From positions 1-64,000 of the forward strand of contig JAQBPN010000093.1 in NCBI GenBank assembly GCA_028287505.1: a stretch of 64,000 nt of DNA, written 5' to 3'. Positions 45,107 to 49,957 of this stretch are shown here, piece after piece. The translations under genes and the position numbers were made by a program. The stretch comes from Fibrobacterota bacterium. GTDB taxonomy: Bacteria; Fibrobacterota; Fibrobacteria; UBA11236. Under the pieces are notes generated by a model. It was not told the origin of the DNA. It saw only the letters and a list, made by a program, of their open reading frames with translations, and did no database searches. Position 1 is the stretch's first letter. Each line of letters begins with the position of its first letter.

Positions 45107-45153
45107 TTTCTATAACGCCCACAGTCCGAAGCAAAAGCTATATGCCGTCATAT

Positions 45154-45174
45154 GCCCCCGGACACTCCGGGGGC
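45154..45174. repeat. GC-rich hairpin between DUF3078 and EF-hand genes
   Basis: GCCCCCGGA (45154-45162), loop CAC, TCCGGGGGC (45166-45174), a perfect 9-bp stem without a T run. Possibly a weak terminator or mRNA stabiliser. Confidence 0.5.
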
Positions 45175-45259
45175 CGAATCGAGCGGTTCCCGGTCCACCT
45201 TGGGAAGTCCCGCTCTCCAGGTTATCTTACCCGCTTTGGTGAACTCACGGGAGCACGTC

Positions 45260-47473
45260 ATGGCGCAAAAACATAAATGGACTTTCTTCCGCGCCGGCGG
45301 CTTCGATCAGGTCAAACTGGAGTCCGGCGCGGACCTGATGAATCTCGACAAATTGGACAAAAAGCTGTGGGTCGCTCTCGCATGTCCCACCAGCGGCCTG
45401 GAAATCGATTCGCGCACCCTGGACCTGATCGATTCGGACAAGAACGGCCGCATCCGTCCCGGGGAGCTTATTGAAGCCATCGGATTCGCCGCCGCTCAGT
45501 TGAAGAATCCGGATGACCTTCTGAAGGGCGAGCCCGGCCTGCCTCTGGCCTCCATCGACGATTCCAATCCCGTCGGCAAGGTGCTATTGTCCTCCGCCCG
45601 CCAAATCCTCTCCAATATCGGCAAACCCGAGGCGCTGCTTCTTTCCGTGGAAGACGTATCGGACCGTTCCCGGATCTTCGCGAATACCGCGTTCAACGGC
45701 GATGGCATCATTACCGAATTGAGCGCCTCCACCGAGCCGGTCCGCGCGGTCATCCGCGAGATCATCGAATGCATCGGCTGCGTCCCGGATCTCTCCGGCA
45801 AGCCCGGAATCCTGCCCGAAATGATCGACGCCTTTTTCGCGGAGGCCAAAGCCTTCGACGCCTGGTACGTGAAGGGCGACGCCGAAGCTACCGCGGTCTT
45901 CCCGCTGGGGCGGCTGGGCACGGCGGATGCCGTCTCGGTCATCACCGCCATCAAGCCCAAGGTGGACGATTATTTCGCCCGATGCCGCCTCACGGCCTAC
46001 GACCCCCGCACCGAGCAGGTGTTGAACCGCAAGGAAGAGGAGTATCTGGCGCTGGCCGCGAACGATCTGAGCATCACGGCCGCGGAAGTGGCCGGCTTCC
46101 CCCTTTCCCACGTGGGTCCGGAACGGCCCCTGCCCTTGATGGGGCCCGTGAATCCCGCGCATGCGGCGGCCCTCGCCAACCTGGCGGTCGCGGCGGTGAA
46201 GCCGATCCTGGGGACCCGCGACAAGATCACGGAGAGTGAATGGCATGCCGTGATGGCCAAGGTCGCTCCATACCGGGCCTGGCAGGAGCAGAAGGCGGGA
46301 CTCAAGGTGGAGCAGCTCGGGGAGAAGCGTATCCGGGAAATCCTGGAATCGAATCTTTACGCCCAGTTGAACGATCTTGTCGCCAAGGACAAAGCCCTCG
46401 AAAGCGAAACCGCCAGCATCGAACAGGTCGAACGCCTGGTGCGTTATTACCGGGACATCGCCCTGCTTTGCACCAACTTCGTCAACTTCAAGGACTTCTA
46501 CGACGGCGCCGAACCTTCCATCTTCCAGTGCGGCACGCTGTACCTCGATCAAAGGGAATGCCGCTTATGCCTTCGCGTCGAGGATCCCGCCAAGCACGCC
46601 ATCATGGCGGGATTGGCCGGGGCGTACCTCGCGTATCTGGACTGCACGCGCAAGGAATCGAACGAGAAGATGCAAATCGTGGCGGCTTTCACGGCCGGGG
46701 ACTCCGACAACCTGATGGTGGGGCGGAACGGAATCTTCTACGACCGCAAAGGACGGGATTGGGACGCCACCATCGTCAAGATCGTGGACAATCCCATCAG
46801 CATCCGGCAGGCTTTCTGGTCCCCGTACAAGAAGTTCGTCCGATTCCTAGAGGAGCAGGTCAACAAGCGGGCCGCGGCCGCGGATGCGGAGGCCCACGAC
46901 AAGCTTGCCGCGACGGCGGCCACCACCGTCAATGCCGACAAAGCCAAGTTGGCGGTGCCCAAGAAGATCGACGTAGGCACGGTGGCGGCCATCGGCGTCG
47001 CCGCCGGCGCCATTGGAACCTTCGTCACCGCTCTCATCGGCTATCTGGCCGGCATTCTCAAGCTTGGCGTTTTCCCGACCCTTGCCGCCTTGGCCGGGGT
47101 GGTTTTTCTGATCTCCATGCCCTCCGTGATCATGGCGTACATCAAACTCCGGAAGCGCAATCTGGGTCCCATCCTGGATGCCAACGGCTGGGCCGTGAAC
47201 GCGAAAGCCAAATTCAACGTCCCCTTCGGGGCCACGCTCAGCAGCGTCGCCAAGCTTCCCCCCGGATCCCGCAGGGATTCCAGCGACCCGTACGCGGACA
47301 AGGGGTTCCCCTGGAAGCGCGCGCTGGTCGCCTTCCTGCTGCTCTACGTCGCCTACCGGTGGAGCGGCGGTTCCTTCGACCGCGTCCTTCCCTCGAGAGC
47401 GCGCGCCGGCAGCCTGCTGGGCCCCCGGTTGCCTTGGTTCCATCCCTCCAAGCCCGAAGAATTCAAACCTTAG
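45260..47473 (+). CDS. Large EF-hand protein with C-terminal membrane helices, unknown function
   Basis: 737 aa from ATG 45260. An EF-hand loop lies at residues 58-69 (D58-S-D60-K-N62-G-R-I-R-P-G-E69), and a second NGDGII stretch near residue 150 is a degenerate copy. The middle is helical with Cys pairs (FQCGTLYLDQRECRLCLRVED). Two hydrophobic helices near 575-635 (TVAAIGVAAGAIGTFVTALIGYL, FPTLAALAGVVFLISM) and a third near 692-708 anchor it. No signal peptide, so the large N-terminal part is likely cytosolic. Similar uncharacterised proteins exist in Bacteroidota, as I recall. Role unknown; calcium sensing is inference. Confidence 0.75.
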   Translation: MAQKHKWTFFRAGGFDQVKLESGADLMNLDKLDKKLWVALACPTSGLEIDSRTLDLIDSDKNGRIRPGELIEAIGFAAAQLKNPDDLLKGEPGLPLASIDDSNPVGKVLLSSARQILSNIGKPEALLLSVEDVSDRSRIFANTAFNGDGIITELSASTEPVRAVIREIIECIGCVPDLSGKPGILPEMIDAFFAEAKAFDAWYVKGDAEATAVFPLGRLGTADAVSVITAIKPKVDDYFARCRLTAYDPRTEQVLNRKEEEYLALAANDLSITAAEVAGFPLSHVGPERPLPLMGPVNPAHAAALANLAVAAVKPILGTRDKITESEWHAVMAKVAPYRAWQEQKAGLKVEQLGEKRIREILESNLYAQLNDLVAKDKALESETASIEQVERLVRYYRDIALLCTNFVNFKDFYDGAEPSIFQCGTLYLDQRECRLCLRVEDPAKHAIMAGLAGAYLAYLDCTRKESNEKMQIVAAFTAGDSDNLMVGRNGIFYDRKGRDWDATIVKIVDNPISIRQAFWSPYKKFVRFLEEQVNKRAAAADAEAHDKLAATAATTVNADKAKLAVPKKIDVGTVAAIGVAAGAIGTFVTALIGYLAGILKLGVFPTLAALAGVVFLISMPSVIMAYIKLRKRNLGPILDANGWAVNAKAKFNVPFGATLSSVAKLPPGSRRDSSDPYADKGFPWKRALVAFLLLYVAYRWSGGSFDRVLPSRARAGSLLGPRLPWFHPSKPEEFKP

Positions 47474-47547: not shown

Positions 47548-47808
47548 ATGACCTTCGAAGAAATGTGCCGATTGGCGTTGGCCCGGAAAAGCGAAATGCC
47601 CGCGGGCAAATCCACCACGGCCCTGTTTGAAAAGGGCGCCCACGGCATCGGCAAGAAGCTGGTGGAAGAAGCGGCGGAAAGCTGGATGGCGGCCCGTTTC
47701 GAAAGCAAGGATTCCCTGTCCCAGGAGCTCTCCCAGGTCCTGTATTACGTCGCCTGCATGATGGCGGAAAAGGGCGTGTCCCTGGAAGAGGTTTACAAGC
47801 ACTTATGA
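47548..47808 (+). CDS. hisE: Phosphoribosyl-ATP pyrophosphatase
   Basis: 86 aa. Second step of histidine synthesis. MazG-like helices with K-S-T-T-ALFEKGAHGIGKKLVEEAAESWMAA (metal-binding Glu pair) and SQELSQVLYYVACMMAEKGVSLEEV. Its TGA overlaps the hisG ATG (ATGA), so the two are coupled. Not fused to HisI here. Confidence 0.93.
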   Translation: MTFEEMCRLALARKSEMPAGKSTTALFEKGAHGIGKKLVEEAAESWMAARFESKDSLSQELSQVLYYVACMMAEKGVSLEEVYKHL

Positions 47809-48641
47809 TCAAGGTCGCCTTGCCCAACAAGGGCCAGCTCTTCGAACCCACCATGGATATCCTCTCGGCATGCGGCTACAAGGTCAGCAAGTCCCTGCGT
47901 TCCCTGAGCACTTTGGATGCGGAAAACCAGGTCGAGTTCTTCTTCCTGCGCCCCGGCGACATTCCCCTGTACGTGGCCAACGGCATCCTGGACGCGGGAA
48001 TCACCGGCAAGGATTTCGTGGCGGAAAAAGGCGTGAGCCCCGCCTGCCTGGTGGATCTCAGCTTCGGGGCTTCCAAACTGTGCGCGGCCGTTCCCGAACA
48101 CCATGCCGCCAAAGGGCTGGCGGATCTGAAAGGGATGCGGATCGCCACCTCGTTCCCGAATATCGTCGGAGCCAAGCTGCCCGGCAACCCGCTGGTGGAA
48201 CTGGAAGGCGCGGTGGAAATCTCCATCAAGCTCGGCATCGCGGACGCCATCGTGGACATCGTCGAGACCGGCACCACCCTGAAACAGGCGGGCCTGCGCA
48301 TCATCGGGGAACCCCTATTCGAGTCCCGCGCGGCCCTGTATGCCCATCCCGGACGCGAGAAACAGGATGAAGTGCTTATCCTCAAGAGCCGCATCGAGGG
48401 CAAGTTGCTGGCCCAGGAATACATGATGGTCGAGTACGATGCCCCCGAGGCTCTGCTCAAGGCCGCCTGCACCATCACCCCGGGCATCGAATCCCCCACG
48501 GTGATGTCCCTGGAGAAGTCCGGCTGGTTCTCGATCAAATCCATGATCAAAAAGCGCCAATCCCAGAACATAATGGATTCCCTGTCCAAACTGGGCTGCA
48601 AGGGAATCATCCTGACGGCCATCGATAGCGTCCGAATCTAG
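47805..48641 (+). CDS. hisG: ATP phosphoribosyltransferase, long form
   Basis: 278 aa. First, committed step of histidine synthesis. IKVALPNKGQLFEPTMDIL, ANGILDAGITGKDFV, ATSFPNIVGAKL and the PRPP-binding DAIVDIVETGTTLKQAGL are clear. Residues 205-278 form the regulatory ACT-like domain of the long, HisZ-independent type. Only hisE and hisG are here, so the rest of the pathway lies elsewhere. Confidence 0.97.
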   Translation: MIKVALPNKGQLFEPTMDILSACGYKVSKSLRSLSTLDAENQVEFFFLRPGDIPLYVANGILDAGITGKDFVAEKGVSPACLVDLSFGASKLCAAVPEHHAAKGLADLKGMRIATSFPNIVGAKLPGNPLVELEGAVEISIKLGIADAIVDIVETGTTLKQAGLRIIGEPLFESRAALYAHPGREKQDEVLILKSRIEGKLLAQEYMMVEYDAPEALLKAACTITPGIESPTVMSLEKSGWFSIKSMIKKRQSQNIMDSLSKLGCKGIILTAIDSVRI

Positions 48642-48675
48642 AAGATTCGGCCCTGATTCCGGCAAAATCCTCCGA

Positions 48676-48704
48676 TTGCATTGTGCTCCGCATCACGCTG
48701 TAAC
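48676..48704 (+). promoter_or_regulatory. Possible promoter for the tail-tube-like gene
   Basis: TTGCAT (48676-48681), 17-bp spacer, TGTAAC (48699-48704), about 65 bp before ATG 48771. The -10 is weak. Confidence 0.3.
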
Positions 48705-48770
48705 GCGCGTATGCTTCCATTCCATGCGAAAATAGTTATGCTTTTCATGCGCGTCCCTACAGGAGTAAAC

Positions 48771-49283
48771 ATGAACCGTTGCAGCTTGCTGTCGCTGGCC
48801 TTTTTGGGGGCGGCGGCCTTGGCTCTACCGGCATCCGCCGGCGTACGGCCCGGTACCGATGCGGGTTCCGGCCCCTTCACCATCAAGGTGGAAATCGAAG
48901 GCGTCACTCAGGGCGTCTTCCAGTCCGTGGAAGGACTCGCCTCCCAATCCGAAGTGATTGTCCAGGATGAAAGCGGAAGCATGGCCGAAGCGCCCGGGCC
49001 GCTCAAGGGCTCCCGCCTGATCCTGAAACGTCCTTACGATCCGCTCCTCAACGGGTTGTGGAACTGGCGCCAATCCGTCATCGATCGGGATCCCCAGAAG
49101 CGCGACGGCAGCATTTTCATCTTCGATTGGAAGGGGCAGTTGGTGGCGCACTGGATATTCCACAAGGGTTGGCCCTGCCGCTGGGAGGTGCCGGTCTTGA
49201 CGGCGGGAGCCACCGAGCCCGCCGTGGAAATCGTGGAGATAGTGCATGCCGGGTTGAGCCTGGAAAGCCGCTCCGGTTCCTGA
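48771..49283 (+). CDS. Exported phage tail-tube-like (T4 gp19 / TIGR02241) protein
   Basis: 170 aa from ATG 48771 with RBS AGGAG. Residues 1-23 are a standard Sec signal peptide (cleavage ASA-GV). The mature part follows the gp19-like tube pattern: FTIKVEIEGVTQGVFQSVEGL, EVIVQDESG, GSRLILKRPYD, LWNWRQSVIDRDPQKRDGSIFIFD, GQLVAHWIFHKGWPCRWE and VEIVEIVHAGLSLE. Such proteins normally form the inner tube of phage tails or contractile injection systems and stay in the cytoplasm. No sheath, baseplate, spike or ATPase gene is near. Exact role unknown. Confidence 0.8.
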   Translation: MNRCSLLSLAFLGAAALALPASAGVRPGTDAGSGPFTIKVEIEGVTQGVFQSVEGLASQSEVIVQDESGSMAEAPGPLKGSRLILKRPYDPLLNGLWNWRQSVIDRDPQKRDGSIFIFDWKGQLVAHWIFHKGWPCRWEVPVLTAGATEPAVEIVEIVHAGLSLESRSGS

Positions 49284-49293
49284 AAATCTCCCA

Positions 49294-49332
49294 TTAAAAA
49301 ACCCGCCCCGATTGACTCGGAGCGGGTTTTTC
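49294..49332. terminator. Bidirectional terminator
   Basis: AACCCGC (about 49299-49305) pairs with GCGGGTT (49322-49328), with an inner CCGA/TCGG stem. A run of A precedes it and a run of T follows, so it ends both the tail-tube-like gene (plus) and ahpC (minus). Confidence 0.88.
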
Positions 49333-49363
49333 GCTTACAGCCAGCCAGGCGGGCGAAGGCGGA

Positions 49364-49957
49364 TTACTTGGACTGGAAGAAGGCTTTGACGCCTTCGTTC
49401 GAACCCTTCATGGCCTTCTTGCCTTTGGTCCAGCCGGCGGGGCAGACTTCCCCGTGCTCCTCGTTGTACTGGACGGCGTCGAGCAGGCGCAGGGCTTCTT
49501 CCACGCTGCGGCCGATCGGGCGATGGCTGATGTTCTGGGCCATTACCTTGCCGTCCTTATTGATGATGAAGGTGGCGCGGTAGGTGATGCCCACGTCTTC
49601 ATCCAGCACGTCATAGGCGCGGGAGATGGACTTGGTGAGATCCGCGATGATGGGATAGGTGACGCCTTGGATGCCGCCGTCGTTCTTCGGGGTGCGGAGC
49701 CAGGCCTGGTGGCTGTTGACCGAATCCACCGACACGCCGATTACCTGGGCGTTGCGGGACTCGAATTCGCCGAGCAGGTCCTGGAACGCATGGATTTCCG
49801 TCGGGCAGACGAAGGTGAAATCAAGCGGGTAGAAGAACAGGACCACGTATTTCTTGTCCTTGAACTGGGACAGGGTGTAGTCCTTCTTCGACTCGTTCGG
49901 CCCTACGGCGGCTTCGGCTTTGAAATCCGGGGCTTGCTTATTGACTAATACTGCCAT
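49364..49957 (-). CDS. ahpC: 2-Cys peroxiredoxin AhpC/Prx1 type
   Basis: 197 aa. Peroxidatic Cys in DFTFVCPTE, resolving Cys in GEVCPAGW, conserved GVSVDSVNSHQAWL, and a full C-terminal tail. Typical 2-Cys enzyme that reduces hydrogen peroxide and organic hydroperoxides; no AhpF is adjacent, so thioredoxin may be the donor (inference). Confidence 0.97.
   Translation of the reverse strand: MAVLVNKQAPDFKAEAAVGPNESKKDYTLSQFKDKKYVVLFFYPLDFTFVCPTEIHAFQDLLGEFESRNAQVIGVSVDSVNSHQAWLRTPKNDGGIQGVTYPIIADLTKSISRAYDVLDEDVGITYRATFIINKDGKVMAQNISHRPIGRSVEEALRLLDAVQYNEEHGEVCPAGWTKGKKAMKGSNEGVKAFFQSK

Follow-up and report, generated by a model that had tools for sequence, protein, structure and literature searches.

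To our knowledge, the tube proteins of phages, tailocins, T6SS and contractile injection systems (CIS) have always been treated as cytoplasmic parts of a needle. The protein considered here is encoded at positions 48771-49283 of the 64,000-nucleotide stretch of DNA that was analysed (hereafter the window), taken from a 6.07-Mb draft genome of the Fibrobacterota. It shares with the tubes of CIS and phage tails (PF06841-TIGR02241; Pvc1, Pvc5, Afp1, AlgoCIS and the Streptomyces CIS) its domain, fold, domain length and C-terminal motif, and these tubes are its best matches in the PDB by both sequence and structure. It differs from them in being apparently exported, in having a shortened β2-β3 hairpin, in having no sheath, baseplate or ATPase genes beside its gene, and in having diverged below the TIGR02241, CIS1 and CIS5 cut-offs. 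Whereas a CIS or phage tail tube is expected to be cytoplasmic, without a signal sequence, and to have a sheath in the same gene cluster, the window gene has no such sheath and its product carries what its sequence suggests is a conserved export signal. The features of the locus, and those of a second group discussed below, are collected in Table 1.

Table 1. Features of the window locus and of the exported gene pairs of family f157 (coordinates without a locus name refer to the window).
Feature	Location	Strand	Basis or remark
hisG, left border of conserved slot	47805..48641	+	ORF; same border in 6/6 genus genomes
Ribosome-binding site (CAGGAG)	48760..48764	+	Sequence; AGGAG 7 nt before ATG 48771
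Predicted exported PF06841 (tail-tube-fold) protein, 170 aa precursor	48771..49283	+	ORF, ribosome-binding site, start-codon check; PF06841 match; orthologues in 3 more genus genomes
Predicted Sec-type signal sequence, residues 1-23, cleavage ASA|G	48771..48839	+	Sequence; hydrophobic core and A-x-A site present in each of 4/4 orthologues
Predicted tube-fold domain	48882..49256	+	PF06841 search; AF2 model, top PDB matches PVC/Afp/CIS tubes
Shortened β2-β3 (ring-stacking) hairpin region, residues 61-76	48951..48998	+	33 aa between EGL and RLILK landmarks
Terminator-like hairpin	49297..49331	.	Between the 48771-49283 gene and convergent ahpC; fold -20.8 kcal/mol, z -4.29
ahpC (peroxiredoxin), right border of conserved slot	49364..49957	-	ORF; same border in 6/6 genus genomes
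f157 two-gene exported cassette	L109 8310-10112		Tube-fold, then ~407-aa six-repeat protein
f157 two-gene exported cassette	L110 8177-9967		Tube-fold, then ~407-aa six-repeat protein
f157 two-gene exported cassette	L135 7082-8875		Tube-fold, then ~407-aa six-repeat protein
f157 two-gene exported cassette	L136 1562-3598		Tube-fold, then ~407-aa six-repeat protein
f157 two-gene exported cassette	L137 1281-3152		Tube-fold, then ~407-aa six-repeat protein
f157 two-gene exported cassette	L138 8221-10008		Tube-fold, then ~407-aa six-repeat protein

The original prediction assigned the mature part of the protein to the tube family, and this was confirmed by a match to PF06841 (Phage_T4_gp19) over residues 38-162, the sole Pfam match, with an E-value of 3e-19 and a score of 69.6 bits against a cut-off of 28.2. 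The score of 60.6 bits with TIGR02241 (phage tail region protein) lies just under the cut-off of 62.4; the orthologue from genome G003 reaches 64.4 bits and the other two orthologues 55.7 and 50.0. The equivalogs for the CIS tube (CIS1, 14.2 of 220 bits) and the CIS tube adaptor (CIS5, 40.5 of 260 bits) are missed, as they are by the CIS tubes of Fibrobacter. A phmmer search of PDB sequences gave E-values below 1e-4 only for injection-system tube proteins, and the PHROGs families yielded no match. The predicted structure points the same way: the AF2 model, computed from an alignment with exported and CIS tubes (pLDDT 83.8), has the tube fold, its best PDB matches by Foldseek being the PVC and Afp tube subunits (E about 1e-9, TM 0.70-0.74), followed by the Streptomyces, Anabaena and Algoriphagus CIS tubes and then by Hcp and phage tubes. 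Since the presence of CIS tubes in that alignment means that the structural likeness could be borrowed, a second AF2 run employed the four exported sequences only; this is a weak control of low confidence (pLDDT 62), in which CIS tubes again rank first with weaker matches. The core of the domain and the C-terminal strand motif, GWPxRWEVP...EEVVEIVHxGLSLE, are among the best-conserved parts of the protein.

The export call is based on sequence features and their conservation. In MNRCSLLSLAFLGAAALALPASA|G an n-region is followed by a hydrophobic core (mean Kyte-Doolittle value of 2.3 over 12 residues) and an A-x-A site, and the three orthologues keep these features, in agreement with the Sec signal peptide originally proposed. 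Pairwise comparisons within the genus gave pN values of 0.48-0.57 against pS values of 0.54-0.75 for the N-terminus, the sequence of which is therefore nearly free to change, and of 0.18-0.26 against 0.62-0.73 for the mature part. These substitution figures indicate purifying selection on the mature part, and the N-terminus, which in each orthologue drifts in sequence while retaining its hydrophobic core and small-residue cleavage site, evolves in the pattern of a signal sequence in use. The N-terminus of the G003 orthologue contains an RRxFL motif, so that Tat export may be possible for that protein. The next in-frame start beyond the hydrophobic N-terminus is a GTG at codon 40; because this falls inside the first strand of the PF06841 domain, a start downstream of the signal sequence is unusable, which speaks against a true start further on. 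It is thus very improbable that the protein stays in the cytoplasm as the remnant of an injection system since lost, with an N-terminus that only resembles a signal sequence: although the family is otherwise cytoplasmic, a usable later start is lacking, selection is purifying, and the export signal is present in all four orthologues and again in two other lineages.

The gene has its own ribosome-binding site, as foreseen. It was also said to have its own terminator; a strong, T-rich hairpin does follow the gene, but it may be shared with ahpC, which converges on the gene. For this hairpin the consensus terminator scan alone gave a result not above chance, and a sigma-70 promoter scan found nothing. 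The G+C content of the gene, 0.63, is close to the 0.59-0.62 of its neighbours.

The comparison within the genus covered six genomes, each species being represented by a single draft. Orthologues of 60-65% identity occur in G002, G003 and G005, so that the gene is present in four of the six genomes including that of the window (G000), in every case with a signal sequence and between hisG and ahpC, where the original prediction had placed it. The gap between these two genes (window 48641-49364) is a variable slot across the genus (loci L063, L064, L065/L078, L029 and L015). It holds the tube-fold gene alone in G000 and G005, the tube-fold gene and an EF-hand protein in G002, the tube-fold gene among three exported ASH-domain proteins in G003, and one exported ASH-domain protein without a tube-fold gene in G004; in G001 the site is empty, with hisG and ahpC 83 bp apart. 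A link with the exported ASH-domain proteins was considered and rejected, since their presence or absence does not follow that of the tube gene, and no conserved partner gene adjoins the tube-fold gene in the loci of the genus. In the loci of the genus that were examined, hisG is preceded by a conserved gene for a 773-residue protein without a Pfam family (window 45152-47473), which has an EF-hand-like motif at its start and hydrophobic segments near its C-terminus. Among 168 Fibrobacterota genomes no other genus has the exported form; PF06841 matches in other genera are near 30% identity or less, and the PF06841 genes of Fibrobacter and G078 are in clusters with sheath genes.

The patchy distribution within the genus resembles that of a defence gene, and a homologue of tube proteins would be located in the periplasm just where attacking tubes arrive. 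It is on such grounds of plausibility only that the protein might be imagined as a decoy, one that binds to, or assembles with, the arriving tubes of phage tails, CIS or T6SS and so blocks them. We consider this improbable, given that defence genes are missing from the neighbourhood and that the slot has been kept for long times under strong purifying selection.

Phage and injection-system genes had been said to be absent from the vicinity. Locally this stands: tblastn detected no sheath homologue in the window, the tube-fold gene has no sheath, baseplate or ATPase genes beside it, and no cap, initiator or length-control gene is near it. A prophage or phage origin was rejected, there being no match in 50,697 phage records, viral contigs or PHROGs and the flanking genes being hisG and ahpC; the orthologues, all in the same slot, are likewise not bound to prophages. 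Over the whole genome, the tube-fold gene is the only PF06841 gene and the PF04984 sheath is absent, but the statement does not extend that far, since a T6SS locus is found on a separate contig, C113, at about 94828-108931 (L075). It comprises genes resembling TssK, TssL, TssM, TssA, TssB, TssC, TssF and TssG, together with Hcp (PF05638, 6e-35) and gp25/TssE (PF04965), both confirmed with Pfam; genes resembling those of sugar ABC transporters follow it on the contig. The window protein resembles T6SS Hcp in overall fold, yet it has no match to PF05638 and no linkage to tss genes, the genome encodes a separate Hcp, and Hcp lacks a signal sequence. With such a system at hand, and gp25 genes in all six genomes of the genus, the window protein could assist the resident T6SS, perhaps by adapting its tube in the periplasm or by holding the place of Hcp. 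However, the gene lies apart from the T6SS locus, CIS tubes are nearer relatives of its product than Hcp is, and gp25 occurs also in G001 and G004, which have no tube-fold gene; the T6SS therefore fails to explain the tube gene, and we regard a role of this kind as highly unlikely.

Sheath clusters in G001 and G005 were considered as the missing machine and rejected, since a PF06841 tube is missing from both and neither is linked to the tube-fold gene. The two clusters (L067 1721-10367 in G005 and L068 9299-18199 in G001) are related, and include a coiled protein of about 1,200 residues. A 165-residue ORF in the G005 cluster (L067 7607-8104) matches no family and could encode a tube protein that has escaped recognition. 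In G003, the 6-kb contig C8 (L077) bears gp25 and baseplate-like genes, a CIS or phage tail fragment that may be contamination of the draft genome.

The β2-β3 hairpin provides most of the ring-to-ring contacts in tubes and is nearly constant in length (PMC9022992, PMC6088184). Measured between the EGL and RLILK landmarks, the corresponding segment spans 33 residues in the window protein, 32-33 in the genus and 29-31 in f157, a family of another phylum described below, as against at least 36 in 25 of 27 CIS-type sequences and 34 and 35 in the remaining two. The window protein thus does not have the stacking hairpin of normal length that is characteristic of CIS and phage tails: in the genus and f157 the hairpin falls short of that of nearly all injection-system tubes by about 3-7 residues (about 3-4 in the genus), and the REGG-type hairpin motif has been lost in the genus. 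A short stacking hairpin argues against a long exported tube. The original prediction had offered either an exported tube or fibre or a reuse of the fold; reuse fits best, while a true periplasmic or surface fibre of stacked rings, for which the predicted tube fold and the top structural matches to PVC and Afp tube subunits would speak, is weakened by the hairpin in both the genus and the second exported lineage, and by the lack of a cap, initiator or length-control gene nearby, and we think it unlikely. The same shortening, the lowest confidence of the AF2 model in precisely this hairpin, and the occurrence of a single gene without partners in the genus would all suit a protein that forms no rings whatever, acting as a small monomeric binding protein in the periplasm or at the surface. 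This is a somewhat more credible alternative, if still a doubtful one, because the core and the C-terminal tube strand motif are highly conserved, as expected if subunit contacts persist.

The explanation that we favour, with confidence evenly balanced for and against, is that the protein at 48771-49283 is a detached and domesticated CIS or phage tube protein that has acquired a signal sequence and works in the envelope either as a small ring or as single subunits. It draws on features that the sequence itself gives: the tube fold, a Sec-type export signal conserved in the genus, the lack of nearby sheath and baseplate genes, purifying selection, and a fixed slot with some losses. The protein, once part of a CIS or of a phage tail, would have become separated from its machine and gained a signal sequence; Sec would carry it unfolded across the inner membrane, and cleavage at ASA|G would be followed by folding in the periplasm or by passage further outward. 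With its stacking hairpin shortened, the protein would build no long tube; as a single small ring or a monomer, it would most likely serve in the cell envelope as a module for binding or scaffolding.

Beyond the genus, about 390 genomes sampling many families were surveyed, followed by a second survey, amounting to about 1,000 overlapping genome searches in all. The nearest CIS-type relative on the tree comes from another phylum (G282): its tube protein matches the profile of the genus with an E-value of 1.4e-28 and has the WRxSVIDG and AWPCKW motifs in common with it, but lacks a signal sequence and is encoded directly downstream of a phage-type sheath gene. In family f157, PF06841-like proteins with an N-terminal signal sequence, ending in GAWA or similar, are present in all six genomes; the two that were tested match PF06841 with E-values of 1.6e-11 and 2.2e-8. 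The neighbourhoods of signal-bearing homologues were compared, as suggested in the original prediction. In each of the six f157 genomes the tube-fold gene is followed, after 12-110 bp and in the same orientation, by a gene for an exported protein of about 407 residues, homologous in all six; no other neighbour is common to them, and the neighbourhoods otherwise differ. This protein has about six repeats of the type GYYVLYDDGEIAFFGDA, from which we take it to be propeller-like; sequence searches of Pfam and the PDB gave no match for it. From this constant gene order, the repeat protein is likely to be the partner of the f157 tube-fold protein, and the two would act together. Neither the window nor the genus loci searched yielded a homologue of the partner, and the window protein differs from those of f157 in this respect.

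A third exported group consists of PF06841 proteins with signal sequences in G265 (two tandem copies, L143 7156-8265) and G421 (L126), which are about 60% identical to the tubes of plasmid-borne CIS clusters. The nearest plasmid relatives were considered as exported kin and rejected, the annotated ones examined being in CIS clusters and without a signal sequence. Like the window protein, those of f157 and of G265 and G421 combine the PF06841 fold with a signal sequence, and no sheath homologue was found in the stretches surrounding their genes. Unlike it, the G265 and G421 proteins keep a full-length hairpin and are closest to a different group of CIS tubes; hairpin shortening is not, therefore, a general mark of exported PF06841 proteins. 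On the tree the genus and f157 are weakly grouped (88/72) and G265 and G421 stand apart, and the hypothesis that all exported forms arose once is not rejected (p-AU 0.27).

The literature searched yielded no account of exported PF06841 proteins; the original prediction had named the locus the best candidate for an undescribed system in the window. Those of f157, with their constant partner of about 407 residues, and of the G265 and G421 lineage are new findings of this analysis. It is conceivable, and we suggest it tentatively, that exported tube-fold proteins form a distinct, undescribed class of envelope protein, tube rings having been recruited to a place outside the cytoplasm by two lineages or more; one of these would have made them half of an obligate exported pair with a propeller-like protein, the two forming a ring-plus-propeller structure within the envelope or on it. 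Annotation pipelines at present hide exported PF06841 genes under the name 'phage tail protein'. The f157 exported gene pair offers a simple and the most testable lead. A tube protein apparently exported by Sec, long kept without a needle and recurring in unrelated lineages, would represent a new use of the tube fold.
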